Source: Neovahlkampfia damariscottae | Taxonomy: Eukaryota; Heterolobosea; Selenaionea; Neovahlkampfiida; Neovahlkampfiidae | DNA: 64,000 nucleotides | Direction of reading: 5' to 3' | Assembly: GCA_016618085.1 (NCBI GenBank) | Contig: JABLTG010000023.1 | Coordinates: 91,509-155,508, forward strand | Part shown: piece after piece, positions 668 to 62,098 of the stretch | How positions within the stretch are numbered: position 1 is the first letter of the stretch | Layout: each line of letters begins with the position of its first letter | Notes under the pieces: generated by a model | Told to the model about the DNA's origin: nothing | Database searches by the model: none | The model's input: the letters and a program-made list of their open reading frames with translations, nothing else | Translations under genes and position numbers: made by a program

Positions 668-1351
668 TTAAATCAGTTGTCCAAATTCGAATGTTTTTTT
701 TCCTTTGAATCCTTTAAATCCAACGTACTGTACATCTATATTTGATTTTGAAATTGGATTTTTTGAACTGATCAATTCTAAAAGAAAAAAGTTAAAAGTT
801 TCAATTGTGTTACTTAAAAGAACATAGTCACCATATCTTGGAATTGGCAATTTAAAGACACCAACATTATTTTTTTTCAGTTCAAAAAAAATAGCAGGAT
901 CATTTTCATGTTCTGTCTCGCCTATTAAATCAAGAGCTCTTCTATATCTACTATATTTATCTTTTGTAAAATTATCAAATGTGACAGTTTTATCAATATC
1001 CAATTTATCATTTGAAACAAATAAAATACCAGATTCCAAAGGGCAAGTAAAGCTGAAAAAAAAAAAATCAAAAAAAAAAAAAAGTTTTACCCAATTTCAG
1101 GAGACTGGATGATGATATGGGTGATGATTACAGGTCCTTCATTTGATTTTAGCAGTATATTTATGTTTTCATTTTTAATTGTACAATAAACACTTGCATC
1201 TGGAGTGAGCTATAGATTTTGAATTAAAACTGAAATTATATTTTACAATATTCTCACATTTATATCCTTCTAACTCTGATCCATCAGTTGATACAATCGA
1301 AAAATCAAGAGTTTTTAATTCTCTGTTGAAGTCTTCTTTTGTTGGATTCAT
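668..1351 (-). CDS. Galactose-binding (F5/8-type)-like fold protein
   Basis: Three exons on the minus strand, with introns at 1210-1246 (37 nt) and 1053-1090 (38 nt), give 202 residues in a continuous frame. ATG at 1351-1349 is chosen because it opens the frame and lies 4 nt from a CCAAT box (ATTGG at 1356-1360 on the plus strand). Residues about 25-45 (ENILTPDASVYCTI) and the following hydrophobic strand (VIITHIIIQSPEIGF) resemble the start of a discoidin/F5/8-type jelly roll, and the C-terminus ends in VQYVGFKGFKG. This is a fold-level guess from pattern and not a firm family match. No signal peptide or membrane segment is visible. The gene diverges from the CCDC174-like gene across 49 nt. 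Confidence 0.6.
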
Positions 1352-1400
1352 ATTGATTGGATAAACAATTTTCCACCAATAAAAACACTATCAAAATTCA
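1352..1400. promoter_or_regulatory. 49-nt divergent promoter with two CCAAT elements
   Basis: Only 49 nt separate the ATG of the minus-strand gene (1351) from the ATG at 1401. The interval holds ATTGG at 1356-1360 (a CCAAT for the leftward gene) and CCAAT near 1374-1378 facing the rightward gene. Confidence 0.6.
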
Positions 1401-2054
1401 ATGTCTTTAGGTTGGTTAACAGAATCTTCAATTTTACCAAGAAAACAAAAAAACATAGAAGGCGTTTCTGCCAATACTATGGTTGATTTAAAAGCTTTAA
1501 TTTATGACAAACAATCACAAAACAAAAATAAATCCATTCTTGGAAATTTAAATGAAAAAAAAGTCCTTGGAGCAAAGAATAAAAATGTTGAACAAAGAAT
1601 ACAAAAAGATAAAGCAATCATGAGACAACAAGAACAACAAGATGTTGAAAAAAATCTCCGTAAAAAAGCAGTTTTATATGAAAAAATGTTAAAGGGTGAA
1701 TTAGAAGATACATTTGATGATTCACTCATTGATTTTGATAGAAAAGAAGAAATAAATGAGTATCAAACAACTGTTGATGAAGATTTTCTTATTGGAAATA
1801 AACAGATTTTTTCAAAAGATATGGAAAACGCAGAAACAAGAAAAGAATGGGAAAATAATATCATACAAGATAAAAGAAAAGAAATATTAAAAATTAAAAA
1901 ATCAAAAAGTGTTCAAGGTGTTACTAATACAACAGCCTCAGCAAGAGAAAAAGTTAAAGAGATTAGAAGAGAAAAAAAAAAGAAATTGAAAAAGAGGATA
2001 ATGAAGTTAAAGTTGAGGTCAAAAAAAAATGTTGAGCAGTTGGATTCTGATTAG
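1401..2054 (+). CDS. CCDC174-like coiled-coil nuclear protein
   Basis: Single-exon gene of 217 residues. The N-terminus reads GWLTESSILPRKQKNIEGVS, then MVDLKALIYDKQS, then a charged stretch ending in AVLYEKMLKGE and LIDFDRKEE. This order (GWLTES head in plant and protist members, VDLKA-x-L, YEKM-x-KG, then DF) is that of the CCDC174 family, an uncharacterised nuclear coiled-coil protein linked in animals to the exon junction complex. The C-terminal third is Lys/Arg/Glu-rich helix. At 217 residues it is shorter than animal CCDC174 (over 400). A splicing-related role would suit a genome full of tiny introns, but that is inference. Confidence 0.65.
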   Translation: MSLGWLTESSILPRKQKNIEGVSANTMVDLKALIYDKQSQNKNKSILGNLNEKKVLGAKNKNVEQRIQKDKAIMRQQEQQDVEKNLRKKAVLYEKMLKGELEDTFDDSLIDFDRKEEINEYQTTVDEDFLIGNKQIFSKDMENAETRKEWENNIIQDKRKEILKIKKSKSVQGVTNTTASAREKVKEIRREKKKKLKKRIMKLKLRSKKNVEQLDSD

Positions 2055-2159
2055 AAATAATGTACAAAAAAGTTTTAAAAATTTATAAATAAAAATTTTG
2101 GCTCTTAAGGTAGGAAATGTGATTAAATACAGTATGTACAAGTGAATTGTTTCTATTTT

Positions 2160-2498
2160 TCAATTATCTTCGTGGATGTCCTCAAAAAACAATTCTTCTT
2201 TTTCCAATTCTGATTTTTCAACATTCCAGTTCTCTGTAAGTGCTGAAAACAGAGAATCAAGTTTTATCGGTTTTGGAAGTGTTTTATTTGTTTGATTTAT
2301 AATTAACTTTGCAAATTCAATTTCTTGTAGTTCCTCTTTGTTCAATGAGTTTTCAAGATTTTGTTCCCTTTTGTCTTCTTGTGCTTTTTGTTCCAACAAG
2401 AGTTTTTTTCGAAGTTTCTTTTCTGTTCTATATTTTTTGTATTCTGTGAAAGAAGAATAGACCTTGGGCACATTAACGGCTTCAGTACTTTTCTCCAT
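2160..2498 (-). CDS. Small charged protein of unknown function
   Basis: A single-exon frame of 112 residues from ATG 2498 to the stop at 2160. A CCAAT box (ATTGG 2513-2517 on the plus strand) sits 15-19 nt upstream of the ATG, as for its neighbours, which supports a real gene. Residues 15-60 are a strongly basic and acidic helix (SFTEYKKYRTEKKLRKKLLL and on), and the C-terminus is acidic (EELFFEDIHEDN). I do not recognise the family. Its composition suggests a nuclear or ribosome-biogenesis accessory protein, without proof. It converges with the CCDC174-like gene, 105 nt apart. Confidence 0.5.
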   Translation of the reverse strand: MEKSTEAVNVPKVYSSFTEYKKYRTEKKLRKKLLLEQKAQEDKREQNLENSLNKEELQEIEFAKLIINQTNKTLPKPIKLDSLFSALTENWNVEKSELEKEELFFEDIHEDN

Positions 2499-2648
2499 CT
2501 CAAAAGAAGTTGATTGGTCAAAGGTCTGAGTCTTGAAAAGGTATTCAAAATGTCACTTCTTTTTTATTTTCAAAAATCCACAAATTATTCGTGAGTTATT
2601 TTTAGGATAAAAAACGTTTTAATTGGTTCAAAAAACAAAGTTGAAGAA

Positions 2649-4582: not shown

Positions 4583-4583
4583 T

Positions 4584-7458
4584 TTATTTGGAATTTCTTT
4601 CTATCCAATTTTTGAATTTTGGAAAAATAAAAAAATTTTTTAAATCATCTTGATCCAAATTTAGTAAAGGAATGATGGTTTTGTAATCGTTTTCAAAGCT
4701 AAAATTGATTAATATTTCTTTCATTTTTGGTGAAGAAATGATGAAATTTTTCATTTTTTTCTTTGAAATTTCTTGTAAGAGTGTTTGTTCATTTTTAGGA
4801 AAGATGGTGGGCATATGTGAAAATTTGAATATACATTTGACTAAATTTTCATTTGAATGTTCTGTTATTTCATCAATGGTTTTGAAAAACCAAGTTGATT
4901 GAGAATCTATGTTTCTTGAAATCTGCATGATTGTGTCAAAATACTCCCCAGGTATCCTATTGAAATATATTAATGAAAATATTATAATTACTCTAACAGT
5001 GGATATTTCTTTTTTATTTCATAATAAATCAGAAAATTCTCGATCATGAATTTTTCAAAATTCATCAAATATTCATCATGAAGAAAAACTTTTGTGATAA
5101 TTTGATACAAATTTTTGTTCTCAATATTGGATTTTCTGTTAATAAAATCAGAGAAATACCACATGAATTGTCTATATTTCAAAATTGAATCTTTGTCAGA
5201 CTTCTGTAATATTTTTCTACACCAAATTTGAGTTTTTTCATTTGAAACCAACGACAAAAATATTAATTTTTCCTTTAATTTTTTTGGAATAATAAAATGT
5301 TTTTGATTTAAAATGTGAGATAAGTTTTCATCAAATGGTTCAATTGAATTACAAATCTTCTCATCAAAAACTAATTCCCAGTCAATTCTTTCTTCAAATG
5401 AACAAATAAGATTTGTAAAAAACAAAGAATTTGTTTGCATTATCAAAATTTTTTTGTAAACTTCCAAAATTGGTTCGATTTTGAAAAAGTGTGAAAATTT
5501 GGAAAAAACAATCTTCAAGAATCTTAAAATTGAATGTTTCTTGGATTCTTCATTTTCATTCAATAAAGCTCCCAATAATAATTTTGTCAAGTATTGAACA
5601 TCAACTAATTTTCCACTTTGCAAAAACGTGGATAATTCCAATTCTAATTCTTGTTGTGAATCTGAATTGATTGATTTTAATTTTTGAACAAATGTGTTTG
5701 ATATCTTTTCAAAATTAAAGAATTTATCAAATTTTTGGATTGTATAATGAGATCGTAATTCATTAAAGAACCTGATCACAATAGGTATTTTTTGTTGCTC
5801 ATCTTGCAATATTTTTGGAATGTATTGATAAATAAGGTTATTGAGATATACATATAATTTTGAACCATCTTTTAAATCATATTTCTTCAAAATTCCAACT
5901 ACATTCTCCCATTTTTTATTGTTGAAGATTTCCAATAAATTTTGTTGATCTAATTCGAAGTCTGAAACATTCGTTACTTGGATTAACCTCTTTTTTATAA
6001 CATGAATTAGTCTCTATTATTTTTAATTTCAATTTTTTTTACCCTTATTGATTCATTTTCAATGTCAGAAATCTTGATTTGTGAAAAAAATGGTAAGACA
6101 TGTTTGTGCAAAAATTTCAAAGATTCAGAAAAAATTCTCATTTTGATTGTGTTCAACAATCCATAATTCATTGAAAAATTATTTTGAGATAAAAGATTTT
6201 TCATGAAGCTTCCAAAATCAAATCTTGAAAAAGTTAATCAAACAATTTGAAAGAATACTCTTTTTTTAGTGACAAAAACTGAACCACATTCAATGATATA
6301 TTAAACATCCTCAATAAACACATATGTTTAATCACTATTTCCAAATTTCCAAATTTGGAAACAATTTGAGTGAAAGTAGTCATTGCTTTCATACCGATTT
6401 CCTAAATAATTGAATCATTGTAAATTTTACTTCGTTAAGGAAAACAAAACTTTTTTGGTGATGTGAAATCTTATTAAATATTAGTATTGCAGATGATATG
6501 AATAATTGGTTCGTCTTTTCTTTGTAGTTTTTTGAAACAAAATCCAAGTAATATTTGAATGAGACCGCAGCCTCTTTTTCGAATCTGATATCAGTCAAAT
6601 GAGCAAAACATAAATGATAAAATGTTAAAGATGCTAATTCCTTGAATATTTAAGTAAATTTTTAATTCTCACCAACAAAGTCTCAAAATGTTGTGGGAAT
6701 ACAGTTTGAGGAATTCGTTTGGATAATGACAAAATTATTGGAATTTCCAGATCAAAAATAAATTTCCTGAATAATTTGAGTTCTAAATTAGAATTTAAAA
6801 TAATTAAATCCCATAAATCTTCTATAGATGAATCTAAAACACCATTGGTATTAATAAATCTACTTGAATAGTCTATTAAACAACTAACATCTTTGTATTT
6901 GGTTTCTGAGAAATAATCATCATTTTTTAAAAAATTATTCCATGAATTATCCATTTCTAAAACATTTTTCGTTATGGATTTTAATTTATCAAGTGAAGAA
7001 AAATTTTCAAAATTTTCACACAAACTATTTCCAATCTTTGAATTGTATTTTTCTTTATTATTCATGCTATATATCAATTCTGAAACATGAACAAACAAGA
7101 AATCTTTTTCATTCAAAATTTTTGTACTCAAAGTGAAAAAATTAATATCAAAAATTTCTTTCAAAATATTTTCAATTTCTGGAACAATTTCACGAATATG
7201 ATATAAAAGCGTTTGAATTTGTGTTTTTGTTTCTGAAAATGTTGTGATTATTAAAAAATACTTCCAAATTTTCTTGTGAACTATTTGTTGAGTTTTTATT
7301 TTTTCAATGAAAAATTGTTTGAAACTCCTGATGAATATTGGATACTTTTTAATTATTATATACAAATTATTCAATATTTTATCAGTTTCTCTTTCAGTTT
7401 TATTTTCTTCAAAAAGTTCGAAAGACAATAACTTCACTTGGAGGGATAATTCATTCAT
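4584..7458 (-). CDS. Large all-helical protein of unknown function
   Basis: Six exons on the minus strand, introns 6641-6672, 6402-6430, 6224-6258, 6014-6042 and 4957-4991 (29-35 nt), give 904 residues. ATG 7458 is preceded by CCAAT only 3 nt upstream (ATTGG 7462-7466, plus strand), implying a very short leader. The protein is rich in Leu, Ile, Phe, Lys and Asn and reads as stacked amphipathic helices, as in HEAT/ARM scaffolds. I see no catalytic motif, membrane segment or zinc site. I do not recognise the family; a nuclear or vesicle-scaffold HEAT protein is possible. Its 3' end nearly abuts the repeat-protein gene, and it diverges from the phosphatase gene over 111 nt. Confidence 0.7.
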
Positions 7459-7569
7459 TTCATTGGATAATTCAACACAGAAAAAAACAAGTTATAAAAT
7501 TAGAGAAATAAAAAGAAAAAAAAGAATAAATTATTTTGAATTTGACTATCCAATCAAATTGAACAGGTG

Positions 7570-11148: not shown

Positions 11149-11632
11149 GTTGTGAGTTTGTGTTTGTGGTTCTGATTGGTGAGTATTTTAAGAAAAGAAA
11201 ACTATATTTAGACGTTGGAATTCCGAAATCTGTTTTTTTTTGTTTATTCTATTAACTTGAAGATTGAACTGATTTAGTTACGGAGAATTTTAATCTTTTT
11301 TTTAGAAAGACGCCGTCCAATCACATCAACACAACTCCGAGCTTTACTTTCTCAAACACACCACGACTGATATCGTATGCGTGTACTACAATACAGAGGA
11401 GAATGAAAAAGTTTTGCATCATGAGAGAACTACTGAAACAATTTGCACAACACTGGATTAAGTCCAATGACTGAAATGGGCAATTGGACAATTTAAAAAC
11501 CTTATCCAATAGAGGAAGACGGGTATTTATCAACAAAAATGAACAAACGATTTGACCAATCGGATATCTTTTTGCTTCAAAAAAGCTACAAAATAGCCGC
11601 TGTTAAATTGATTGGTTACTAACAAAGAAAAA
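11149..11632. other. Intergenic stretch, unusually GC-rich core
   Basis: 484 nt between two divergent genes. The core 11310-11540 has visibly more G and C than the flanks and opens with GTCCAATCA at 11319-11327, the promoter motif seen before genes. The only frame (minus 11321-11536) is Cys/Leu-rich, has no recognised motif, and lies antisense. No tRNA cloverleaf was found. A non-coding transcript or gene remnant is possible. A second CCAAT (11553-11557) serves the sulfite oxidase gene. Confidence 0.4.
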
Positions 11633-13396
11633 ATGTTTTTGCGAAACTTACGAAGGACTTTCAATGTTAAACCTAATACCATATTATTCAAATCTATTAT
11701 TAAACAAAAAAAACTTCAGTTTTTAGCAACTATTTCACTCACATTATTCTTTGCAAAAAAGTTTTCTGCAAAGGAAACAAAAGAAGAACAAAAAAAAATT
11801 GAACCAGGTGTCATCAAAAAGAATTTACCATATTACACATCAGAAGAAATCAAAAAACATAACAATAAAGAAGACAGAATTTGGGTCACGTTTAAAGATG
11901 GTGTGTATGATATCACAGATTTTGTAGCCATTCATCCAGGTGACAAAAAATTAAAAAAAAGTTAAAAAAATTCACAAGGTGGAGAAAAGATATTATTAGC
12001 TGCTGGAGGTGCAATTGATCCATTTTGGCAAATGTATGCAATTCATAAAAAAGAAGAAATTTTTGAAATATTAGAAGGATACAGAATTGGAAATTTTAAA
12101 AAAGATAAAAATTTTAAAGAAGTAAAAACAGATGATCCTTATGCGAATGAACCTGATAGATTACCAATTTTTCAAATTAATTCACAAAAACCTTTTAATG
12201 CTGAACCTCCTTTGGAATTTTTATCACAAAGTTTTATCACACCAAATGAAATATTTTTTGTAAGAAATCATTTACCAGTTCCAGTTGTTGATCCAAAAAC
12301 TTATGTATTGTATGTTGAAGCAGAAGGTGTTAAAAAACAAATTAAATTGACATTGGATGATTTGAAAAAATTTAAAGAACATAAAATTGTCACTACCATT
12401 CAATGTGCTGGTAATAGAAGATCAGAAATGAATGAAGTTAAAAGAGTAAAAGGTTTAAATTGGACTGGTGGCGCTATTGGAAATGCTGAATGGTTAGTTT
12501 GAATTATTTTTAACATTTAAGGACTGGTGTATATTTAAGAGATATCCTTAAAGAATTAGGATTGGAGTATGGAAAAGAAGGAAATCTTGAACATGTTCAT
12601 TTTGAAGGTTATGATATGGATATGGAGAAAAATTCATATGGATCTTCAATTCCAATATCCAAAGCATTGGATCTGAATGGTGATGTTTTAGTTGCATATA
12701 AAATGAACGGTGTTGATATACCAAGAGATCATGGATATCCTGTTCGTGTTATTGTTCCAGGTATCGTTGGAGCAAGAAATGTTAAATGGTTAAAGAAAAT
12801 TAGAGCTGCAAAAGATGAATCTTCATCATTTTGGCAAAAAAAAGATTATAAAGGTTTCTCTCCTTCAGTTGATTATGCAGATGCGAATTATGAAGCAGCT
12901 GATTCTATTCAAGATTTACCTGTTCAAAGTCAAATTTGCATTCCAAAAGAAAACGATGTTGTATTGACAAGTGATGAAAAAATTTTAGTCAAAGGTTATT
13001 CATGGTCTGGAAATGGAAGAGGAATTTCATGGGTTGATGTCTCTGCTGGTAATTTCACTTCAATTTTTAATTTTTTTTCAAAAATAGATGGTGGAAAAAC
13101 ATGGAAAGTAGCGAAATTGACTGCACCAATGAAACAGAAATATGGAAGAACATGGGCATGGTAATAATTGTTTCAAATTTTTCTCATTTTTCATTAGGGC
13201 TCCTTGGGAAATTGAACTTGATATTCCAAAAGATAAAACCGAATTAAAAATAGTTGCAAAGGCTGTGGACACATCATTTAACACTCAACCTGAAGAATTT
13301 GCACCTATCTGGAACATTAGAGGTGTTTTATCAAATGCATGGCCTAAAGTTCATGTCAAAATTCAAAACGACGAAGATGACGACGATGAAGAATAA
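11633..13396 (+). CDS. SUOX: Sulfite oxidase, mitochondrial, cytochrome b5 type
   Basis: Five exons (introns 11940-11978, 12493-12521, 13049-13087, 13161-13197) give 539 residues. The Arg-rich N-terminus MFLRNLRRTF suits mitochondrial import, followed by a hydrophobic segment (FLATISLTLFFA). A cytochrome b5 domain follows (about 65-150): HPGG contributes one heme ligand and the second His lies in the later MYAIHKKEE. The molybdopterin domain has TIQCAGNRRSEM with the Mo-coordinating Cys, and WTGGAIGNAEW. The C-terminal Ig-like dimerisation domain ends the protein. It oxidises sulfite to sulfate in the intermembrane space, passing electrons to cytochrome c. No NAD/FAD reductase part follows, which excludes nitrate reductase. 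Confidence 0.93.
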
Positions 13397-13491: not shown

Positions 13492-13500
13492 GTCCAATCA
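13492..13500 (+). promoter_or_regulatory. GTCCAATCA promoter element of RhoGEF copy 1
   Basis: T-tract followed by GTCCAATCA, 26 nt before the ATG at 13526. A second CCAAT overlaps the ATG itself (CCAATG at 13523-13528). Confidence 0.55.
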
Positions 13501-15921: not shown

Positions 15922-16137
15922 AAATTTTTTGAAATTGTTTATTGAGGTATCCATTTTTGGAAGTGGTGTTGTTTTGTTTTGGAACTCCAATCAAAATCCC
16001 ATTGGTGTGTTGATTCATTTAAGTTGAAATTTGAACCACAATATTTTTCAAAAAAAAATTGAAATTGAGAATTTCCAAGTGTATATGATTTAGAACCAAT
16101 TTGACCAATCAACCAAGTTTTAGTTTCCATTTAGTTC

Positions 16138-18310: not shown

Positions 18311-18411
18311 AATTGCAAAATTTTTTTGTTTTTCACCATTTTCGGCATTTAGAAGAGAAAGAAATTGATAGGACCAATCGTAATCAACTTACTTTCCAAT
18401 TCCTCTTTGAA

Positions 18412-26640: not shown

Positions 26641-27069
26641 AAAAAATAAAATGTTAAATATTTTTTTGAATTTCCAAAGAAAACATGCATCTAGATCCCT
26701 GTTTTATGTCGAATACTATGGATTCATGCGATGCTGAGACAAAAGTCAAGTTTTATTAGCCACGTTATAAATGTGATTTTGATTTTTGGGTATTCCAAGA
26801 AACTTCCTCACTAAAGTAATCTGGTCATTCGACTCTGAAAAATTCTGTTCTCAAAATAAAAAAAATTAGTTTCAAACCATTTTGATAAAAAGATTTGGTT
26901 TATTTGTCCAATTTTTAGTTCCACAATTTGATGTTGAAAATCCCCTTATACTTCAAGATTCCCTTTAAAAAAACACTCAAAGTAATGATCCTCACACCAT
27001 CACTGGATTCAGTGAAATAATAAAAAAAAAAAGAGAACAAACCAATCAACATCTTCACTTTTTGACCTT
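26641..27069. other. Intergenic region
   Basis: 429 nt between tandem genes. It has no long frame and no RNA-like structure that I can see. CCAATCA at 27042-27048 is 22 nt upstream of the next ATG and is the only recognisable element. Confidence 0.5.
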
Positions 27070-31631: not shown

Positions 31632-31679
31632 GAATAAAAATATTCGGTTTTTTTCCACCAATCATTTTCTTTTTTTGAG

Positions 31680-33891: not shown

Positions 33892-33900
33892 GTCCAATCA
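33892..33900 (+). promoter_or_regulatory. GTCCAATCA promoter element of the AP-3 beta gene
   Basis: A T-rich tract runs directly into GTCCAATCATTTTCTTTCAT, 38 nt before the ATG. The same order recurs at 13492 and, in shortened form, at 31656. Confidence 0.55.
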
Positions 33901-36900: not shown

Positions 36901-37275
36901 GAATATATTGTTTCAATGACACCTCCACCAGGTGAATTATTCAAACAATTTCAAATGTCAAAAGATGAATTTGACTCAGAAAAAGAAAAATTAAAAGGAA
37001 TGATGACTGAAGTTGAACAAAAAATTTCAAAACCAATTGATGATAACTATATTGTTTCATCAATCATTCAATACTTCAATTTAAGTGTTGTTGATAATTT
37101 TGATTCAGAATTTCTCTTTTCTGCAAAAACAAAATCAAAAGATGATCCAAAATTAGTCTTGATTTCTTTCAAGAAAAATGAAGAAGGTGAAGGTTTATTA
37201 ACAGTTAATTGTGATGATAATATGCTAATCTCTGTTCTTTCTGGTGATTTAGTTCAAATTTTAACTGCTCAATAA
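33938..37275 (+). CDS. AP-3 adaptor complex subunit beta
   Basis: Seven exons (introns 34061-34099, 34195-34234, 34383-34410, 35068-35106, 35242-35268, 35606-35644) give 1041 residues. The armadillo trunk carries the beta-adaptin signature: LFPNVVTKVVVKNLQVKKLVY, then RALALRVLSGIRVG and YVRKAACVAAAKVYNLEPE, and ILINTLTRYGRNQFLSPFKEGG, which is specific to AP-3 beta. The hinge (about 710-810) is extremely acidic and Ser-rich. The ear domain follows (NPLKTGGFGIDFQFTRDQ). AP-3 sorts cargo from endosomes to lysosome-related organelles. The Ser/Glu hinge resembles the casein-kinase target of animal AP3B. Confidence 0.92.
36150..36385 (+). repeat. Low-complexity GAA tract encoding acidic hinge
   Basis: Purine-rich run of GAA/GAT/TCA codons encoding Glu/Ser/Asp stretches in the AP-3 beta hinge. 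It creates long spurious frames on both strands. Confidence 0.8.
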
Positions 37276-37316
37276 ATCATTTTTGATTCCATTGGTTTGT
37301 TATTTCATCCAATAAA

Positions 37317-41043: not shown

Positions 41044-41140
41044 AATCAATTTTGATTGAATCATCAACCAATAAAACTGTTAGTTTGAATCAACCAATCA
41101 AAACACTTTTAAAAATAACAAGTTCGGAGTCGAAGTTTTC

Positions 41141-42924: not shown

Positions 42925-42932
42925 ATAGAATT

Positions 42933-43403
42933 TTATTTTTTATCTCCTCTTGAACCACCTCTAGTTCCTCTATTTGAAGGTCCTCCTCTTGAGTTACCTC
43001 TAGCACCACGACCTCCACGTCCAGATTTGAAATTTTTCTTTTTGTCATCTTTTTTTTCTTCATGATGTCTTTCAACCATTTCATCAGGTAAACGAATATA
43101 TTTAATCATATTTCCACGAACATAAGCAGTTTCCATTTTCCAAAATTTCTCTCCATCCTTAAAAGTTTTTAACAAGAAAATTCTCAAAGTTACTTTTGAA
43201 GTCAAAATGATGTTTTTTAAATTTAAATTCATCCAGTTATCACAATTTACAAAAGTACCATTGAAAGTTTCTCCAGTCTTCAATTCAATCAACTAAAGTT
43301 TGTTTTTTAAAGTTTTTTTTTTTACAATATTTTGATCTTGAGATGTTTTTAATAAACTTAAAGGCAACTTTTTTATTAATTAAAAAAACAAAATTCGAAC
43401 CAT
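42933..43403 (-). CDS. LSM4: U6 snRNA-associated Sm-like protein LSm4
   Basis: Four exons on the minus strand, introns 43368-43400 (33 nt), 43293-43325 (33) and 43158-43193 (36), give 122 residues. The first coding exon contains only the ATG (43403-43401); the second encodes LPLSLLKTSQDQNI, identical in pattern to LSm4 N-termini. Sm1 (LIELKTGETFNGTFVNCDNWMNLNL) and Sm2 (YIRLPDE preceded by RGNMIK) follow, then an RGG tail. LSm4 is part of the LSm2-8 ring on U6 snRNA and the LSm1-7 ring in mRNA decay. The RGG tail is typical. CCAATCA lies upstream on the coding strand (plus strand near 43450). Confidence 0.93.
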
Positions 43404-43586
43404 TGTTGTATTCTCAAAGTTTTTTTTGTTGAGTTAAAAAAAATAATGATTGGTCAATTAAATAAAGTTGAAAAAAGGCCAAAAAAAATTGATTGATTTT
43501 GAATTCAAATTCTTTTTTTTTTTTTTATAATTTCCATTTTTTGTATGAAAAATTTATTCATTCTTTTCAAATTTATTTTTTTTTTT

Positions 43587-47950: not shown

Positions 47951-48027
47951 CTTGATTGAAACGTTTGATTGGTGGAATGAAAAAGATTGTTTTAAAGAAG
48001 TGTGATCAATATTAGACCAAAATCTCT

Positions 48028-48744: not shown

Positions 48745-48988
48745 GATGTACGTTTCAGTTTCTTTGTTGAAGAAAATACTTCCAATTGGATAAGAAAATC
48801 AATTCTAAAATTGAAATTGGTGAACAATAGTTTCCGTTGTAGATTAATTTATTATCTTTTTGTTTTCTTTCTTCCAGTTTTAGATGTTATTGTTCGATCC
48901 AAATTTGGTTCTAATCATTCTTCACTTTCTTTTTTGTCCAATCAGCAGTTTTAAAACCAAATTCAGATACAAAACACAAATTCAAAAC

Positions 48989-49336
48989 ATGGGGAAACAA
49001 CAAATAATTATAGAAACAAATGAAACAAATCCAATATTTGAGGAAAAACACAACAAAATCTACAGGAAAGAAGTCACAATCACAGGAGAGTCCAATCTCA
49101 TTGAATCAGTGTCCAACAAGAAATATGTTTCCAATTTATTGCGTGCATTGGAAGAAAAGCTTCAAGAACTACAAGAATTTAAAGAAGTCACCATAACAAT
49201 CAAAGTTAACAAAAAAGTTGATCACTGTTCGAACATCCAAATTTTTGATGGATCAGAGGAAGTAGTGTGGAATGATGACGAAAGTTCACTTTTAACATGC
49301 TCACCAGAAAATGCTGTTGACGATTGGGAATGGTAA
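48989..49336 (+). CDS. Small conserved-looking protein of unknown function
   Basis: Intronless, 115 residues from ATG 48989, 47 nt downstream of GTCCAATCA (48936-48944). It reads as alternating strands and helix: YRKEVTITGE, then VSNLLRALEEKLQELQEF, then EVTITIKVNKKVD, with an acidic C-terminus ending DDWEW. The single long amphipathic helix between beta strands could be a small alpha/beta domain. I do not recognise the family. The promoter position and clean frame make it a likely gene. Its stop lies 27 nt from that of the convergent topoisomerase gene. Confidence 0.55.
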   Translation: MGKQQIIIETNETNPIFEEKHNKIYRKEVTITGESNLIESVSNKKYVSNLLRALEEKLQELQEFKEVTITIKVNKKVDHCSNIQIFDGSEEVVWNDDESSLLTCSPENAVDDWEW

Positions 49337-49363: not shown

Positions 49364-52300
49364 TTACTCCTTCCATTGAAAAAAATCACATTGCCCATCT
49401 TTCAAAGCACATTTAAAAAACTCTCTCCCAGCATTTTGTCCATTTTTACAAGTCAAAAGAACAGCCTTTTTGTTATGCTTACAAATTGGAATTTCATTCT
49501 TTTTCTTTTTTTGATCATTGAATTTTCTTGGTTCCAATTCATTTCTCTTTCCTAAAACTCTTGTGCTGCTGTTTGAATTAGATGAAATGACAGATCTTGT
49601 GTTTGATTTATTATGAATAACTACATTGCTAGTTGGTAGTTTGTAAATACTCATTAATTGAAATTCAGATAATGGTGATGGACAACAGATACATGTTGTT
49701 AATTTCAAAGGAATCAAATACGGAACTGAAGAAATGTTAATCAATTTGAAAATTACATACCTTTTCCTTGAATAAATTCAAATTTCAATTTTTTGATATT
49801 TTTATGTTTATCACAATATTCATTTGAAATTGAAATATCTTTGGCATCAGGCAACCATAGTGTTTCTGATTTACACCCTTTATAATTTTTGCATGAAATA
49901 GTATATTTGTTACTTTTCAATAATTTCAAAATCAAATTATTACCACATGCATCACATTTTGCAAAGACTTCTTCTTTAGTTGATAATACACAGGATTTTT
50001 CATTACAGTTGAAACATTTAAATTGACCTTGTAAATTTTCTATCTGGGAAATATTAGGAATGAAAAAAGACAATGTATTACATCATTTTGTTGTTTTGGC
50101 GGATTATTTGTACAATAAGGACAAACATAATAAGTTGTATTTTTTGATTCATTTAACACTGAAACAACTTGATAATTACACAAAGGACATTGATGATTAT
50201 ATGGTTTCAAAGTACCATCTAAACAGAATTAAATAATAAATTCATTTACATTTTGGAAGAACATGAGATTCTTTACAAGATGTACAAAATGCAAAATTTG
50301 TATCTCCTGAACTTTTCAATTGCATTGTTCCTTGACATTTTCCACATTTCGAAAAATAATTTTTTATAATTGCACTGCTAGTCAAAGAGGTTCCAATTTG
50401 ATCAAAATACTTGTTCATTGTTTCATCCAGTTTTTCATATTTCTGAATTAATTCTTTGAAGACAGCTAAAAATTAAGTTGAAATTTAAAATTACCTTTAT
50501 ACATTTCAACATTTTCATATAAAATCAACTTTGAATCTTTTCCACGTGATATTGACTTCATATCCAATTCCACTTAACGTTTTTAATGAAAAATTGAAAG
50601 ATTACTTTTCGCTCTTAAATTTGGTTTTGATAAAGAAATATCCATTGAATCATAACCTTGAATTAATGCTAATCCTAATTTTGTTGGTACATAAACATTT
50701 TCTTGCTTGATTGTATATTCTCTGTCAGTGATATTTTTAATATGTTGAGAAATGGTAGCATCTGTTCCTATTTGATTTTTATCCATTGTAGAAATTAAAT
50801 TTTCTTCTGATAAAAGAGGAGGAGCTCTGGTTTTCTCTTCTTTCATTAATAATGCAGTTGGAAGAAAAACTTCATTTTCTTCGAACAAAGGTAATGATTT
50901 GTCGGTCCATTTATCATAAACATAAATATTCAAATAATTTAATTCCTTGATCATCAATCCACTAGTTGTGAAAATTTCAGAAGCAATATCAATGGTGATG
51001 ATGGTTTCATAACCAATTCCATCATTAGAACAACAAGCCAAAAAATGACGACAAATCAATTCATAAACACCCTTTTCTTTTCCATTTAAATTAGTTACGG
51101 ATTTTGTTGGTGAAATTGGAGGATGTGCTTTATCATCATCTTTTCCTTGTTTTGGTTGAACGAATTTATCATCTTCCAATAATGTTTTGCTGTATTCTGA
51201 AAAATCGGGATGCAAAAGAGTTACTTCTTTAATCATTTTTTTCAATTCATCACTTGAGGCATGAAATATATTTGTTTCTCTTTTTGAATTTAAGATAAAA
51301 ATATATCCAATTCTTACGTTCTTGGGTATGAAATAAATCCTTGATTATATAACTTTTCAGCAATCTCCATTGTTTGATGAGCACTTAAATTCAATTTTCT
51401 AGCAGCTAATTTTTGTAATTCAACTGTATTCATTGGATAAGGTCTCCATTTTCTTTTTTCTTTTTTTTCGATTCTGATAACTTTTGCATTTGGATTTTCC
51501 AATAACATTTCATATAAAACAACACAACATTGTTTATCAAATAATCTTTTTCTCTTCCATTGAAAAATTGATTTTTTTTTGTCTTTTTCATATTCACAAA
51601 AGATGTACCAATAATTTTCACTGACAAAATTTTCCTTCTTTAAATATCTTTCAACAATAAATCCTAATGTTGGAAATTGACAACTTCCATAACTAATAAC
51701 ACCCTCTGGTAATCCTTCAAATTTTCTTTTCAATTTAGTTGTTTGAAATCGTGTGAATGAAGCTCCAATTCTTAAATCAATTTCTCTTCTGGCATCAACA
51801 GCCAAAGAATCATTTTTATTTGGTGAAACTAAATTATTCATTGCATTTACAATAGATCTTTGAAATATTAATTTTTTTGAGGTTTTTACCTGTTTGTCAT
51901 ATCTGAAAATTTTGCTCTTTTTACAGTCAAGTATTTGTTAGCTTTTTGACAACAATCAATAACTTCACTAAAAGGATGAATAATTCTTATTTTTACAAGG
52001 CTATATTTTCTCCTTCTCTATCACAATCTAACCATAAAACAAGTTGTTGACATTTTTTTGCCTCAATTCTTAAAGTTTCGGCGATTAATTTTGAATTCTG
52101 AATTAGAATGATAAATTAGAATACAAGATTTACTTCTGGAACAAATTTTACGATTGGAGCTTCAAAAAGTTGAACTGGATCACAAGAACCCCATTGACGA
52201 AAATTGTCTTCAAAATCCATATCATAAAGATGTCCTGATACGCTTGTAAAAACCATGTCGTTATTTTTATATTTGAATTCATAAATAGAGTTATATTTTG

Positions 52301-52455
52301 ATTTGCCTGGTCTTCTTTGAGCTTGGTTGTTTGATAGAATTCCAGAAATTTTTTTTGCTTTTTATTTGAGTTGAATTTATTGTTTACCTGCATCTGGCTT
52401 TTCAGCGACATGCAAAATCTAATTTTTTAAATTTTTTTTTTTGTTTTACTTTCAT
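49364..52455 (-). CDS. TOP3A: DNA topoisomerase III (type IA)
   Basis: Twelve exons with eleven introns of 29-38 nt (52419-52449, 52358-52387, 52098-52133, 51968-51996, 51858-51889, 51280-51317, 50573-50605, 50466-50494, 50219-50249, 50044-50081, 49726-49760) give 909 residues. The first coding exon is only ATG AAA. The TOPRIM domain has [14 protein letters not shown] and [12 protein letters not shown]. Conserved [21 protein letters not shown] and the catalytic Tyr loop [11 protein letters not shown] follow. The C-terminus has Cys4 zinc motifs ([28 protein letters not shown]) and a final GRF zinc finger ([20 protein letters not shown]). TOP3 with RMI1 and a RecQ helicase dissolves recombination intermediates. 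Confidence 0.95.
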
Positions 52456-52937
52456 CCTTCTTGGGTTGGAGTTTTGTTTCTTTTTGATTGGAGCATTTTT
52501 TCTCGGAATTTCCTTTTCTCAGAAGAAATAATTTTTCTATTTCACTACAATGCAGAACTTTTGATTAAATGAGACATGATGTTGGAGGATATTCTTTACT
52601 TTTTGTGACAATTATTTTGATGGTTTATTCAATGAACTTCAATTATAACCGCCATTTCTCAAGATTATATAACTGCGATTAGTACATGACAGAGAGGGTA
52701 TTGATCAAATCAGAAATCAAAAATGAAAAAGTTCAGATAAAAATCCCAAAAATTTCACTGACAACAACCAAGCTGAATAGTGAAAAGGTCTCAAATAATT
52801 CAACCAATCTTGTGGAATTGTTTAACTGCTGATTTACATGAAAATAACATTCTAATTCCACAAAATGGGATTGTCCAATCATATAGTTTTGAAAAATCAA
52901 ATAATTCTCATTGGCAAATTCTTCAATCTTCTCAAAG
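52456..52937. other. Intergenic divergent region
   Basis: 482 nt between the TOP3 and Hsp20-UBA start codons. It contains CCAATCA in both orientations (plus ATTGG near 52488; GTCCAATCA at 52873-52881). A minus-strand frame at 52733-52951 overlaps the start of the Hsp20 gene and has no promoter of its own, so I treat it as chance. Confidence 0.5.
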
Positions 52938-56528: not shown

Positions 56529-57509
56529 TTATTGTGAAAATGAGAAATTGATGTCTTCAGTTTTCCAAATTCCTTGTTTCACGTATAATTCAAAATACAT
56601 TCCTGTCATTGCACAAACCACTTCAAAATCATCTTTGAATTTTTTTTGGTACCATTGAATCTCTTTTTTATGCTTTTTCATAGAAAGAATAAAATTTTTA
56701 GTGACTTTTTCCCCTGGGACAAAATAAATATTACCCGGAGACAATTCAATAGCAAATTCAATCAATTGATCTTGCATTTTCCAATGTTTATCCAAAATCC
56801 TAAAACCTGTGTACGGATATTTTAACAAGTATTTTTCAATAAAAGACAGTTCCAAATTACGTTGAATCACCAAATTGATAACATCACACCTGGCTGTTAA
56901 CACATCAAAATCTGATTTTAAATTTTTTGGGAGATATTTCCAAACTACATGAGGTAATTTTTTTAAAAGAACAATCATAATTTCTTTGTTTGAAGTAACA
57001 TTTGAGTATTCTTTGAAGAAATGAAAGTCCTTGGGAGAAGTACTGAAAACCTGGTGTAATACTTGATATTTTGAGGAGAAGTAGTATTTTCTTTTTTGCA
57101 TAAGACCTGAATATTTGATAAAATAATAATAATAAATATCTTCATCTTGAATTTGCTTTGGAAAAGAATGATAAATAGTTGGAGATGCTTTCATTAATTC
57201 AATAAGTAATTTTTGGTTATTAAATATTGCTGAATCAATATACTTATCAAAATTATTTCCAGATTTCTGTGCATAAAGTTTCAATATACTTTTATTCTTT
57301 TTCAAATCATCAGAAATTATTTCAAAATTTTTCCAAGAAGTTTTTAGTAGCTCTCTGGCAAAATAGTAATCTCCAAGCAGTTCTTCTTTTTCCGGTAAGT
57401 CGAAAGAGGTTTTGCAGAGTAATAAATTTCTATTTCTTTTTCTGTTTGTAACTGAACCAGTGATGATACAAGGTTGAAGAGAATTCTTTATTTTATCAGA
57501 TGAACACAT
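56529..57509 (-). CDS. DUF4116-type repeat protein
   Basis: Intronless, 326 residues from ATG 57509. Helical repeats of about 45-50 residues with the DUF4116-like pattern appear: DYYFARELLKTSWKNFEII, NNQKLLIELMKASPTIYHS, NKEIMIVLLKKLPHVVWKYL and MQDQLIEFAIELSPGNIYFV. The repeats are more divergent than in the 45515-45937 protein. The family has no known function. It diverges from the gene at 57653 over 143 nt with ATTGG at 57543-57547 and CCAAT at 57623-57627 (as acccaatag). Confidence 0.6.
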   Translation of the reverse strand: MCSSDKIKNSLQPCIITGSVTNRKRNRNLLLCKTSFDLPEKEELLGDYYFARELLKTSWKNFEIISDDLKKNKSILKLYAQKSGNNFDKYIDSAIFNNQKLLIELMKASPTIYHSFPKQIQDEDIYYYYFIKYSGLMQKRKYYFSSKYQVLHQVFSTSPKDFHFFKEYSNVTSNKEIMIVLLKKLPHVVWKYLPKNLKSDFDVLTARCDVINLVIQRNLELSFIEKYLLKYPYTGFRILDKHWKMQDQLIEFAIELSPGNIYFVPGEKVTKNFILSMKKHKKEIQWYQKKFKDDFEVVCAMTGMYFELYVKQGIWKTEDINFSFSQ

Positions 57510-57652
57510 TATTAATCAAATGTATTTGGTTCGAGATATGCAATTGGTCAATTTGATCACCTCAATTTAAAAATGTAATCCAGCAAAATGGAAATTGTTG
57601 GTTGTTGGATTTTATGAATTACCCAATAGGATCATTTTGAAAAAAACTGAAA

Positions 57653-60297
57653 ATGTCTGCAGAAGAGGAAGTGAAAAACAACAAAAAATATTTCTTGATT
57701 GCTGGTGGTGTTGCAATTGCTTCATTACTCGGTTATTATTTCTATTCAAAACGAGGAGAAACCAACACAGAAAAAGTACAAGATTTGAGCGACGAAAAGA
57801 AAAAAGAAACAAAAAAAATTGAAGATATTGAAGGTAAAAAAACAAATAAAAACCTAATATATTCAAGACAATGTTTTGGATGATGCTCTTGATGAATTGT
57901 TTGAAAGTGAACCCATCAAACAAAAAGTGGAAACAACAATGACAGATTTAGAATCAATTGACTTCATTGTAAAAAATAGTCCAAAATTTTTGAATGAAAA
58001 ATCACTTTTCATTGTAAATTCACTCAACGAAAAAGTTCAAAAAAACAAAGCAAACTTTGAAGGAAAATATTTTGAAGTTTTTTCAAAATTGACATCCTTA
58101 GAAGTCAAAATTCCATTGAACGAATCTATTTCTAAATTAATTGATGCTCTTTTCAAAAATATCGGTAAACCTATCAGATGTGTTAATTGTTTTAGGAGAG
58201 TTGAAGAAATTCATCAGTAAAAATCTCAAAAAGGAATGGAAATTGATATATTATCACTTAAAACATTCCCATAAAAAATACATAAATGATTCATGTGGCT
58301 ATATTTTTTCAATTCTTTGTGAAAAGTTGCAACACTCCAAAACAGAAGATTTCACCGATGAATTTTTTGATTTTCTTGAAGTAACTCAAAAAAGAAAGCT
58401 CATGAGAGATTTTGTTACTGAAGTGATCAATTTATTGTTAAATTGGGATTTAAATGACACTCAAATGTTTTTGATTGCTGCATTTTGTCATAGTCATCAA
58501 TTTCACATTGAAGAATTGAAAATGATGTTAACAAAGGTTAGAAATTTAAATGAACAGATATTGAAGATGAAACCTGAATCAATAGTCAACTTTTTCATAA
58601 CCTGTTATTCAGTAATTCCTGAAGTCACACAAAAACACATATTAGAGTAAGAAAAGATAATTGCACTCATTTTTGAAAGATTATTTCCTTATCTTGTTCA
58701 AATGGATGATTTTACGAAGTTCTGGGGCATTTTTCAAATGGAAAATTGTGAAGGCCTATCAATGGAGCAAATTAATTTAATTTTGAAAAAAGCAGTTCAA
58801 TTGATCCAATCAAATGATGAAATCGATAAACATCATGCCAAAGATATTTTACTGGGTTATTATGATCATCAAAATGAAAAAATTAGAGAAATGCTCCTTG
58901 AAAATAATTTTATTGAAATAACTATTAAAATGATCAAGAAATACAAGTTAATAGGATCAACAGATTTGAGGATTTCATTTCAATTAATGCTCAGCAGATA
59001 TTATGATAAGTTATTGGCAAAAAAAGATTTCAAATCAATTGAATTTCTTTTCAACGATCTTTTGAATAATTTTGATAATCCTGCTTTTCCTGATGATGCG
59101 ACAGTTCAATGTATGTTCTTTTTGTCAAAGGAAATATACAAAGTTTCAAAAGAACTTGAAATCAAAAATTACAATTTCGAAAAGTTCTTAAATATTTATG
59201 AAAAATTACTTAATAATCCGGATAATCAGGTTGTCTCAGTATATGTGATTTCAACGTTTCCGCAAATATTTTCTGAATCTATTGGTTGGAAAGAAATCTA
59301 TTCAAAAAGCAAAAATCAATTGTTGTCTATTCTTGACCAATTGGTTGAAAAAATTGGAATTTCACTTTCTGGTGGACCTGATTCAATGGTTGGTGTTTCC
59401 ACATTTTGGTTTACTCTCAAAAAAGATACCTACCCTTTTTTATCAAGAGTTTTCAAAAAAGGAATTTCTTGTTTAAAGAAAGATAAATCAAAAGCGTCAT
59501 TTTTCACATCATTCATTTTTATTTCATTCTTCCAAAGTTGTTCATATTTTGGGAATTTAATGGATCCTTTTCTTTCTCATCCAGATTTGTTAGAATTGAC
59601 ATTGGATTATACTTCTGTAAAATATTCATTTACTAATTTTTTAGCATCAAAATGATACAACAAGATTTTGTGCTTATTTATTTTTAAATTGTTACCTTCA
59701 AGTTGAAAATAATGTTATTGAAGATTCTATATCGAAAATCAAAATAATGAAACAATATGAACCAAAAAAATCAGAAATTCCAAACATGTAAACAAAATTA
59801 TTGATCACTAAATATGTCTATCAAGTTGTTTATTGGCTCATATTGGATTAAAATATGGTTGTTCATTTCTTGATAAAGATATTGATGAAATGATTGAACG
59901 AACAACCGATCATTTCATGAACAATGAAATATATTTCGATTCAAATGGAAATAGTGGATATTCTTCATTTTTAACGATCGGCATTTTCACTCAATTATAT
60001 TTTGATAAAATTTCCAAAGTCTTTGATAAGTTTGGTGAAAAATTTGGAAAAAAATATCTTGAATCACTCAAAGGCAATGAAAACGAAAATCCATTTGAAC
60101 AAAATTTATTGATGGATTCATTTTCAAAATTATTTTTATCAAATCAATCATTTTATCACAATAAATTATTTCCAAATGTTAATATTTCTGGAATTAAAAA
60201 CAGAAAAGAAATTCAATTATTGATTAATGGAATGTATTTCAGATTATTACCTGAAAATTTTGAATCCAATTTAGATTTATCATTCAAATTTGAATAA
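57653..60297 (+). CDS. N-terminally membrane-anchored helical-repeat protein
   Basis: Six exons (introns 57834-57867, 58165-58195, 58647-58679, 59617-59644, 59788-59825) give 826 residues. Residues 13-33 (YFLIAGGVAIASLLGYYFYS) form a transmembrane anchor followed by basic residues, typical of signal-anchored outer-membrane or ER proteins. The rest, from about 75, is continuous amphipathic helices with no catalytic motif, suggesting an ARM/HEAT scaffold facing the cytosol. I do not recognise a family. The overall look (short N-terminal anchor plus helical solenoid) recalls ARMC10-like and peroxin-type proteins, but this is only resemblance. Confidence 0.7.
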
Positions 60298-60309
60298 ATG
60301 AAGTACTTT

Positions 60310-61581
60310 TTATTCTTCATCACTTGAATCTGACACAGAATCATCACTTGGAGCACCAAAATCATTGGCGTCAAAATAATCCAATGTTTGTCTGGCCCCA
60401 AAAAAACCAAGATCCAAAGCAGTTTGAAAATATTTTCTTGCTTTCTTAAAATCTTGATTTCTTTCAAAACTAGATTGATAGAAATAAATAATACCAAGAT
60501 TATTCAACACATCTGAAAAATCTGATTTTTTATCTTCTGGAATTGATTTGATATCAGTGTGTTCAATAGCTTTTTCATAATAATCCCGAGCTTTCTTTTC
60601 ATCTTTTGTTCTTCCAAGTTCCAAATAATAAATATCACCCAAATCAAATCCTGCTTCACTTTCAAGTTTAAATTTTCATCAAAACTTATTTTCTTACTAA
60701 TTTTTATATTTGTGATAAGCTTCATCAAGAAATTGTAATGCTTTGGTTTGGTCCACATCACAACCTATACCGTCTAAATACATTGATCCTAAAAGTTGAT
60801 AAATTGCTCCAAGAAAAGTAAAATTCTTATCATCTTTTTTATCCAATAATTTGAGGTATTTTTCCAACATATCCAAAGCAGCTGTTTCATTTTTTTGAAT
60901 ACCTAAACCTCCAATTAACATTTCACAATATTTTGTTAATCCAATTGCTGATTTTGCATCCATAGCTTTTTCATAATAACCAATAGATAATTTCAAATCT
61001 TGCTTACAATATACACCAGAACGATATAAATCTCCTGTTTTTATCATTGCTTCTAAATTACCATATTCAGCAGAAGTTCTGAAAAAATTCAAAATTTGAC
61101 GAGAATTTTCATTAATTTCAGCAATTTTTCCCATCAATAAAAATGCTGATCCAAGAGCTCTTTCATTGACATCTTTTTTTTTTTTCTTTTTTTCTTTAGT
61201 TGTATAATTTTTTAAAGTATCAAATGACTCATCCAATTCATCTCGTTGGAAAAGAATTTTACCTTGAAAATACATTGGAAGAAGATTTTCTTTGGTGATG
61301 GCTTCTTCAAAAAGTTTCAAAGCTTTTTCGTCATTTTTTTCGATTATTTTTCCTTCATGTAATAAAATACCCATTTTGGTCATTGCTGTAATGGAACCAT
61401 CTTTAATTGAACTGTCTAATAACTCAATAGCTTTTTTTGTTTCATCTTTGAATATTAGAGTTTCAACTTGTTCCATTATGTCTTCATTTTTTATTGTCTT
61501 TGTACTTTTTGATGTTTCATCATTTAATTTTTTTTTCTTAGGTGTTTTTGTTGTGGTGGTTGTTTTTCTCTTGTTGACCAT
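60310..61581 (-). CDS. Sel1-like repeat protein
   Basis: Two exons (intron 60659-60697, 39 nt) give 410 residues. The start MVNKRKTTTT at 61581 is chosen because a CCAAT box (plus 61590-61594) lies 9 nt upstream; an ATG at 61674 extends the frame but into the promoter. The N-terminal 30 residues are Lys/Thr-rich, like a nuclear signal. Repeats of the Sel1/TPR type follow: GSITAMTKMGILLHEGKII, GNLEAMIKTGDLYRSGVY, AIGLTKYCEMLIGGLGI, LGSMYLDGIGCDVDQTKAL and AGFDLGDIYYLELGRTKDEK. Sel1 repeats scaffold ERAD and signalling complexes; the specific partner is unknown. The C-terminus is acidic. Confidence 0.8.
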
Positions 61582-62098
61582 AGTTTGGACCAATAAAACT
61601 GTAGCAAATTCAAAAATAAAATAGAAATAAATTTTAGAGTTCAAATTTGCAAAAAATGTTTCTTTTTGAATCATTTCAAGTAAGTGGGGGCAAAATCTGC
61701 TGGCCCTTTTCAGAAATATTTCGTTTTAGTGACCTGAGAACAGCGGATTTCCTCTCCACATGACCATCTTGATTTTTTTCATCAAAAAAAAGTCATTTTG
61801 CCGTTTTTCAAATTGTGATTTCTGATTTAAAACATACCTCATAATACACTTTTTCTCTCCTCTTCCTCTGAGAACATAAAAAAAGTCATTTTCCCATTTT
61901 TCAAATTCACGAAAACATATAAAAATTCATCTCATTACTCCTCAGAAGTCAAAATTTAGTATTTCATTTGAAAAAAAAAAATTTGCATCCAATAAAAATT
62001 CTCCGATAATTTGACCAATGATAGATAATATTTTTGTCCAATCATTGTTTGTTATTGATCAAAATAATCCAACCAATTAAAAATAACTTGAATTCAGG
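61582..62098. other. Intergenic region with promoter elements and a diverged repeat
   Basis: 517 nt, divergent. It contains a diverged direct repeat (61784-61814 and 61878-61907), and two CCAAT boxes (62014-62018 and GTCCAATCA at 62036-62044) for the rightward gene. No frame of note. Confidence 0.5.
61784..61907. repeat. Two diverged direct repeats in an intergenic region
   Basis: AAAAAAAGTCATTTTGCCG at 61785 and AAAAAAAGTCATTTTCCCA at 61878, each followed by TTTTTCAAATT. The units are about 30 nt, 94 nt apart, differing at two positions. Confidence 0.65.

Follow-up and report, generated by a model that had tools for sequence, protein, structure and literature searches.

Most predicted genes in a stretch of 64,000 nucleotides (nt) of the Neovahlkampfia damariscottae genome (the window, meaning the whole of this stretch), and in 200 kb of a second contig (C11), carry the pentamer CCAAT, or its reverse form ATTGG, a short distance upstream of the start codon. 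These pentamers are very probably boxes of NF-Y (also known as CBF or HAP), which serve as its chief promoter element. The box itself is known, and what would be new is its start-proximal placement. NF-Y is thought to work upstream of the transcription start site (TSS), and in human cells it can block initiation from a position at or beyond the TSS; a genome with boxes near the start codons of most genes puts this rule to the test on a large scale. The most novel part of the findings is a SNF5 protein that contains the CCAAT-reading segment of NF-YA.

Enrichment and identity of the CCAAT box

The host genome consists of 307 contigs (20.4 Mb), the window being part of contig C154, with a GC content of about 28%, and it shows eukaryotic features, namely intron-bearing genes and the coding of sulfite oxidase, RhoGEF, adaptin, SMC-hinge and BTB proteins. 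Genes were predicted with a small two-strand gene finder trained on the window plus the 200 kb of C11. From the raw predictions (46 + 147, six-nucleotide 'M*' genes among them), coding sequences (CDS) of at least 200 nt with a predicted start were analysed, giving 156 starts, 37 in the window and 119 in C11. All starts and first exons are our own predictions. Since the choice of starts used no upstream motif, the motif analysis is not circular; the background was established by 100 rounds of dinucleotide-preserving shuffles.

Of the 156 starts, 115 have CCAAT or ATTGG in the 100 nt that precede them, against a shuffle mean of 37.6 (standard deviation 5.0, largest value 53), the figures being 27/37 against 8.9 in the window and 88/119 against 28.0 in C11. 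The longer word CCAATCA, in either orientation, precedes 66/156 starts within the same distance, against 3.6 after shuffling. When the CDS is at least 600 nt and the spacer at most 300 nt, 75/93 starts have the pentamer within 100 nt, and with spacers above 300 nt, where the starts are less sure, the count is 24/40. A strong enrichment over shuffled sequence had been named in a first-pass annotation of the window as the result that would support the element, and it was observed, coding sequence being likewise lower; the accompanying statement that a box lies by nearly every start was too strong, the proportion being about three quarters.

In the last 80 nt upstream, CCAATCA is the top over-represented 7-mer (45 seen, 1.4 expected), and the observed/expected ratios (O/E) of CCAAT and CCAATCA are 4.5 and 25.8 in this interval, 2.1 and 9.8 at 81-200 nt upstream, and 1.27 and 0.87 (47 CCAATCA seen) in CDS. 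Introns (13.1 kb) contain 13 CCAAT (O/E 1.65) and no CCAATCA, the latter being a weak control because only 0.3 was expected. Of 1052 internal in-frame ATGs, 33.7% are preceded by the pentamer and 2.1% by CCAATCA. Among 54 stretches of 100 nt past stops, 21 contain the pentamer and 7 contain CCAATCA, fractions lying well below the upstream ones (p 7e-6 and 6e-5, respectively). An equal density in introns and 3' regions had been named as the result that would speak against the element, and the comparison came out mostly in its favour, with 11.9 boxes per kb upstream, 1.0 in introns and 4.2 in convergent 3' regions. The CCAAT count of the whole window (278, with 182 ± 14 expected) was set aside as evidence on its own, as coding DNA adds to the total.

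In addition, genes were fetched by family (NF-Y, histone-fold, TBP), the motif playing no role in their choice. These were L029-L036, L040 and L043 (ten genes, L041 being the same as L035), plus two H2B copies (L037 and L038), and each of the 12 distinct genes shows a box no more than 100 nt ahead of its predicted start.

The motif TTTRRCCAATCA corresponds to the NF-Y box, with the layout TTT-RR-CCAAT-CA-A; the NF-Y consensus is RRCCAATSR, i.e., RRCCAAT(C/G)(A/G). The core is strict, the best of the 15 one-base variants reaching an O/E of 1.76 vs 4.8 for CCAAT. In forward boxes, R at -2 (AA, GA, AT or GT) is found in at least 68/96 and RR (AA or GA) in at least 46/96, and the TTT-RR 5' flank is identical across near, far, forward and reversed boxes. 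The CA that follows the box (49/96 of the forward boxes) is weaker when the box is near and reversed, GA then being about equally common; overall, GA is present in 4/96 forward vs 11/64 reverse boxes. The sharing of flanks between orientations and classes fits one double-strand DNA reader.

The genes for such a reader are present. The NF-YA gene (L029) contains both A1 and A2, and could be aligned with chain A of human 4awl, with a plant NF-YA and with HapB of Aspergillus; the NF-YB gene (L035/L041) aligns with human NF-YB, L040 being a second NF-YB-like gene; and the NF-YC gene (L032) has its best alignment with 7c9o chain C. As a whole, the subunit matches span chains of PDB entries 4awl, 6r2v, 4g91 and 7c9o (human, plant and Aspergillus). 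An NC2-beta-like protein and TBP are also encoded. On these sequence grounds, NF-Y, a known factor, is the most likely reader of the boxes. A motif distinct from NF-Y is not supported, as the flanks are of the NF-Y type and the genome carries the NF-Y trimer genes.

Some minor features accompany the box and its factor. The two NF-YB-like genes (L035/L041 and L040) lie about 27 kb apart on contig C235. An AACGGTTTTT element, which we take to be MYB-like, is found near CCAAT in the promoters of histone H2B, NF-YA and NF-YB-like genes (L029, L036, L037, L038, L040). In the upstream regions of the window and C11, TGA often stands directly before the box, giving TGACCAATCA / TGATTGGTCA, which are partly palindromic, and TGACCAAT was counted 12 times in upstream regions against 0.4 expected.

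Position of the box and the start of transcription

Forward CCAAT has its maximum 10-60 nt before the ATG, and most near-gene boxes lie 8-60 nt before the start codon. Even the last 10 nt contain the beginnings of 10 forward and 2 reversed CCAAT, against about 2.4 estimated from the class rate, and four of these ten forward boxes are CCAATG overlapping the start codon. The usual place of an NF-Y box is 60-100 nt upstream of the TSS, and many of the boxes described here are nearer to the ATG than that spacing would leave room for. A fixed spacing to the ATG was not observed, the boxes being scattered from -8 to about -60. Spacings between neighbouring boxes are scattered as well, with small counts that are highest at 11, 23 and 26 nt. 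In k-mer scans of five distance bins near the ATG, no second general word and no initiator (INR)-like word comparable to CCAAT was detected.

Orientation separates two classes of boxes. Proximal CCAATCA (up to 45 nt) is forward in 34 cases vs 9 reverse (p 0.0002), whereas distal boxes (-45 to -100) are even, both overall (39 vs 29, p 0.28) and for CCAATCA (15 vs 13). Likewise, CCAATG is avoided in proximal forward boxes (1/57 vs 9/35 in reversed ones, p 0.0006), with no avoidance at distal positions (4/39 forward vs 3/29 reversed). Throughout the whole genome, CCAATCA-N3-33-ATG occurs 6496 times vs 5718 for the reversed box; chance ATGs dominate both counts, which support the forward bias only in direction.

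Upstream ATGs are most depleted close to the start, the three 15-nt bins nearest to it having seen/expected values of 18/34.7, 14/35.6 and 8/27.6, as compared with 28/35.3, 29/37.6, 30/30.5, 27/26.5, 16/31.1, 20/28.2 and 22/25.5 in the bins farther away. Thus, 5' untranslated regions (UTRs) would mostly be under about 45 nt, and the very short 5' UTRs put forward in the first-pass annotation find signs in their favour. No ATG was counted on the 3' side of proximal forward boxes (0/949; mean 1.9 and p 0.035 in a permutation that keeps the set of box distances), and just 5' of them there were 14/1196. The up-down contrast gave p values of 0.036 for forward boxes to 45 nt, and of 0.044 and 0.005 for reverse boxes to 45 and 60 nt. 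Since a box upstream of the TSS needs no ATG avoidance, proximal boxes seem to be at least partly transcribed. These results suggest, but do not prove, that 5' UTRs measure roughly 10-45 nt and that the transcript start coincides with or includes many of the boxes.

TATA words add some information about a few genes. A TATA box sits 25-32 nt upstream of the TSS, and five of the nine upstream hits of [CG]TATA[AT]A are found at -50 to -41, so that the TSSs of TATA genes would be about 10-25 nt before the ATG. TATA as a general core element was rejected, there being only these nine hits in the 150 nt upstream of the 156 starts. Among 19 genes with a TATA-like word, a box is located upstream of TATA in eight (e.g., TATA at -45 with a box at -91, or TATA at -35 with a box at -84) and between TATA and ATG in eight, two genes having both and five having none. 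A division into two layouts (TATA with a far box, or a near box without TATA) was rejected on account of the 8/19 genes with a box between TATA and ATG; these indicate that near boxes share the zone of the presumed TSS, TATA genes included. In one of the H2B copies, CCAAT lies at -88 and TATA at -54, and two others have a box without TATAAA.

Paralogous genes give a hint that the boxes are functional. Three tandem RhoGEF paralogues in the window (13526-20410), whose proteins are 46-49% identical, each carry a forward box, located at -32, -33 and -38, with upstream DNA that, judged by eye, has lost its alignment; a pair in C11 that is 68% identical has a forward box at -21 and -27. In the 16 paralogue pairs, three have a boxless member, and the others vary in box number and place.

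The best explanation would be that the boxes are bound by NF-Y, which maintains an open promoter, that in this compact genome the boxes adjoin very short 5' UTRs, and that many proximal forward boxes are at or just around the TSS, helping to fix where transcription begins. The location of proximal boxes at the TSS, as judged from sequence, is slightly less likely than not. A TSS-setting role is credible taking into account that, according to the passages cited, NF-Y in mouse cells keeps the region upstream of the TSS nucleosome-free and guards TSS choice (PMC6624317), and that it has been suggested to act in a manner similar to TBP (PMC7793273). Alternatively, all could be ordinary upstream NF-Y boxes with the TSS downstream, the mRNAs being nearly leaderless or the true starts lying farther downstream, with nothing unusual about the TSS. 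This is possible and on balance doubtful. It would account for the distal boxes, which lack both orientation bias and ATG avoidance, for the eight of 19 TATA-like genes with a box upstream of TATA, and for the H2B copy with CCAAT before TATA, and it agrees with the portion consulted of a study of human cells, where sites of NF-Y and similar activators are upstream of the core promoter and depleted near the TSS (PMC11269187). However, boxes 8-30 nt before the ATG leave hardly any space for box, TSS and leader, and forward bias and CCAATG avoidance are restricted to proximal boxes. The initiator-like element proposed in the first-pass annotation is partly supported by a proximal, forward-biased and ATG-avoiding subclass, which behaves as though located at or within the transcript start, and the distal boxes resemble ordinary upstream NF-Y sites.

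A separate initiator factor, comparable to the IBP39 that reads the trichomonad initiator, might read the proximal forward CCAATCA, the word being merely NF-Y-like. The orientation bias that sets proximal apart from distal boxes would agree with it; nevertheless, we regard this as improbable, given a 5' flank common to both classes and both orientations, and an encoded NF-Y trimer. The action of CCAAUCA as RNA in the 5' UTR, in translation or mRNA stability, would also profit from the forward bias and possible transcription of proximal boxes, and is very improbable in view of the reversed boxes, which occur there too and have an identical 5' flank, and of the unbiased distal boxes. The chance that the whole pattern is an artefact of composition or codon usage in an AT-rich genome is practically negligible: CCAAT is indeed slightly above expectation in CDS, introns and 3' regions, but the controls refute it, the shuffle maximum being 53/156 vs 115, and CCAATCA not being raised in CDS.

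It has to be noted that a number of observations weigh against NF-Y boxes as a general element and against their placement at the TSS. Between 40 and 41 of the 156 starts have no box inside 100 nt, and at least two window starts (20783 and 53304) were probably placed too far downstream. Convergent 3' regions are mildly raised (17 CCAAT, O/E 1.68; 5 CCAATCA, O/E 6.5), as are the first 60 nt past stops in tandem pairs, with 11 CCAAT (O/E 2.48), where no CCAATCA was seen and 0.4 was expected. The gene finder may have called some CCAATG as start codons, and when the four CCAATG starts are added the avoidance is weaker (5/61 vs 9/35, p 0.033). Concerning upstream ATGs, two remote bins (16/31.1 and 20/28.2) are low as well, and so is the control triplet CAT in the last bin (20/44.3). 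Three of the six permutation settings were null (forward to 60 nt, p 0.16, and to 100 nt, 0.29; reverse to 100 nt, 0.45), and the ATG contrast stratified by exact distance was not significant (odds ratio 0.66, z -1.05). Moreover, TATA-like genes follow no one layout, and human NF-Y can, as stated in the part of the source used here, repress initiation at the TSS (PMC11269187).

In comparison with known systems, the element shares with the NF-Y/CBF/HAP box of animals, plants and fungi a strict CCAAT with RR before and CA after it, the trimer genes and an orientation-free distal class; it differs in that most near-gene boxes are at most 60 nt from the ATG, and those of the forward class at most 45 nt. 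The CCAAT box of Phytophthora infestans is, in the sections cited, also preceded by a T-rich stretch and mostly within 150 nt of the start codon, but its orientations are equal (984 and 969) and its median position is 83 nt upstream of the INR (PMC3599244), whereas here it is forward-biased near the ATG. Entamoeba likewise has a protist NF-Y trimer that binds CCAAT; in E. invadens, however, going by the excerpts available, CCAAT promoters belong to 354/900 cyst genes, the box shows no positional preference, and NF-YB/NF-YC are stage-specific (PMC6581852). Diplomonads resemble the present case in having an element near the ATG together with short 5' UTRs (a C-rich motif in Spironucleus and an AT-rich initiator in Giardia), and differ in sequence, the Spironucleus motif being present in 16.7% of genes and the portions consulted of the Giardia TSS-seq work giving no conserved CAAT element (PMC3916229, PMC3792122). 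Among the best-ranked literature matches, no paper describing CCAAT as a TSS-proximal protist element was found.

A SNF5 protein with an NF-YA segment

The second PF02045 (NF-YA) match of the genome is the N-terminus of the sole SNF5 gene found, L030 (461-1581, minus strand; C221:247323-248239). According to the gene model, it encodes, in this order, an NF-YA A2 segment, the SNF5 domain and a C-terminal GATA finger, with an intron after A2. The SNF5 domain (PF04855) of the predicted protein scores 111 bits and is the sole match found genome-wide. Three environmental homologues, P0121, P0122 and P0123, which are 46, 39 and 36% identical, respectively, also have A2 and SNF5 in one protein, which argues for the fusion being real. 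PF02045 scores 32.3 bits in the N. damariscottae protein and 30.8 in P0121 (cut-off 27), and is below the cut-off in P0122 (22.9) and P0123 (25.0). The core SRHxHAxxRxRGxGGxF is kept in all four fusion proteins. In none of them is the A1 helix, which holds NF-YB/NF-YC, present, all four beginning at most about 12 residues before A2; therefore, the fusion protein is not an NF-YA. The GATA finger was not found by Pfam in P0121, P0122 and P0123. The search for fusions, made with a two-row alignment, gave eight hits, three with both domains and five being fungal SNF5 without PF02045; it covered proteins sharing short exact words, and more fusions may exist. An AlphaFold model of P0121 (three-row alignment; mean pLDDT 48), with the A2 segment unresolved, was used for no claim.

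SWIRM and SnAC domains are also encoded, which makes a SWI/SNF-type complex likely. The combination of a remodeller subunit that has a CCAAT-reading segment with a genome in which about three quarters of the examined starts have CCAAT suggests that the SNF5 protein could dock directly on the boxes; without A1, this segment may need NF-YB/NF-YC or the nucleosome for holding. A less certain step of the mechanism proposed above would be the targeting of this subunit, with the CCAAT-reading half of NF-YA, to the same boxes. That the SWI/SNF remodeller itself reads CCAAT through A2 in most genes, at the TSS or next to it, together or alternating with NF-Y, is rather unlikely; if true, a single word would both open chromatin and set the transcription start, NF-Y and the remodeller sharing a DNA reader.

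SNF5, SMARCB1 and Sfh1 of the SWI/SNF and RSC complexes have the SNF5 domain in common with this protein, the N-terminal NF-YA A2 segment being the difference. As described in the parts of the source seen, NF-Y of filamentous fungi recruits SWI/SNF and RSC via other subunits, and in budding yeast Hap4 is said to contact Snf5, among others (PMC13221647). A CCAAT-reading SNF5 would instead provide a direct link between a chromatin remodeller and a general promoter box. In one search of open-access full texts, no paper on a SNF5/NF-YA fusion was found.

Boxes annotated in the window

The boxes of the window are collected in Table 1. All ten sites quoted in the first-pass annotation are present as written, and its very close or overlapping boxes were confirmed (CCAATG at 20681 and 13523, ATTGG at 7462 and 1356, CCAAT at 37309). 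The CCAATG at 20681 had been read as a start codon; the hexamer is there, and our own model begins at a later ATG, 20783. A T tract followed by GTCCAATCA had been given as the fullest form at five positions, and GTCCAATCA itself occurs at all of them; the tract is present at 13492, 33892 and 48936, is weaker at 62036, and is absent at 52873, where GGGATT precedes. Nine copies of GTCCAATCA were counted in the window, against 0.8 expected. Those at 22030, 28341 and 36385 are inside predicted genes, and for the copy at 11315 the nearest predicted start is some 320 nt away, so that GTCCAATCA is not solely a promoter word.

Table 1. CCAAT boxes in the window and their distance to predicted genes (+, forward; -, reverse)
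Feature	Position	Strand	Relation to genes
CCAATCA box	1356..1360	-	9 nt before ATG, gene 668-1351(-); 45 nt before divergent 1401-2054(+)
CCAAT box	1376..1380	+	25 nt before ATG, gene 1401-2054(+)
CCAATCA box	2513..2517	-	19 nt before ATG, gene 2160-2498(-)
CCAAT box	7462..7466	-	8 nt before ATG, gene 6389-7458(-)
Reverse-oriented box	11611..11615	-	22 nt before ATG, sulfite oxidase gene 11633-13396(+)
T tract + GTCCAATCA	13492..13500	+	32 nt before ATG, RhoGEF gene 13526-15921(+)
CCAATG overlapping start codon	13523..13528	+	RhoGEF gene 13526
CCAATCA box	16105..16109	+	33 nt before ATG, RhoGEF paralogue 16138-18310(+)
CCAAT box	18374..18378	+	38 nt before ATG, RhoGEF paralogue 18412-20410(+); second box 18396 (-16)
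CCAATG, ATG may be start codon	20681..20686	+	LMF1-like gene (own model: 20783)
CCAATCA box	27042..27046	+	28 nt before ATG, gene 27070-31631(+)
CCAATCA box	31658..31662	+	22 nt before ATG, gene 31680-32632(+); spacer 48 nt
T tract + GTCCAATCA	33892..33900	+	CCAAT 44 nt before ATG, adaptin gene 33938-37275(+)
CCAAT box	37309..37313	+	8 nt before ATG, SMC hinge-domain gene 37317-41043(+)
CCAATCA box	41094..41098	+	47 nt before ATG, BTB gene 41141-42924(+)
CCAATCA box	43449..43453	-	50 nt before ATG, gene 42933-43403(-)
CCAATCA box	47968..47972	-	22 nt before ATG, gene 46083-47950(-)
T tract + GTCCAATCA	48936..48944	+	CCAAT 51 nt before ATG, gene 48989-49336(+)
CCAATCA box	52487..52491	-	36 nt before ATG, topoisomerase (Topoisom_bac) gene 49364-52455(-)
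GTCCAATCA	52873..52881	+	CCAAT 63 nt before plausible start 52938 (own model: 53304)
CCAAT box	57543..57547	-	38 nt before ATG, gene 56529-57509(-)
CCAAT box	57623..57627	+	30 nt before ATG, gene 57653-60297(+)
GTCCAATCA	62036..62044	+	downstream gene, model start 62307, first exon uncertain

Regarding the gene models, that of sulfite oxidase equals EukProt protein P0001 apart from 13 residues, which resemble a missed intron of 39 nt that has been read through. The introns predicted in the window and C11 are very short, with a median of 35 nt and a 5-95% range of 28-58 nt, the minimum allowed by the finder being 21 nt.

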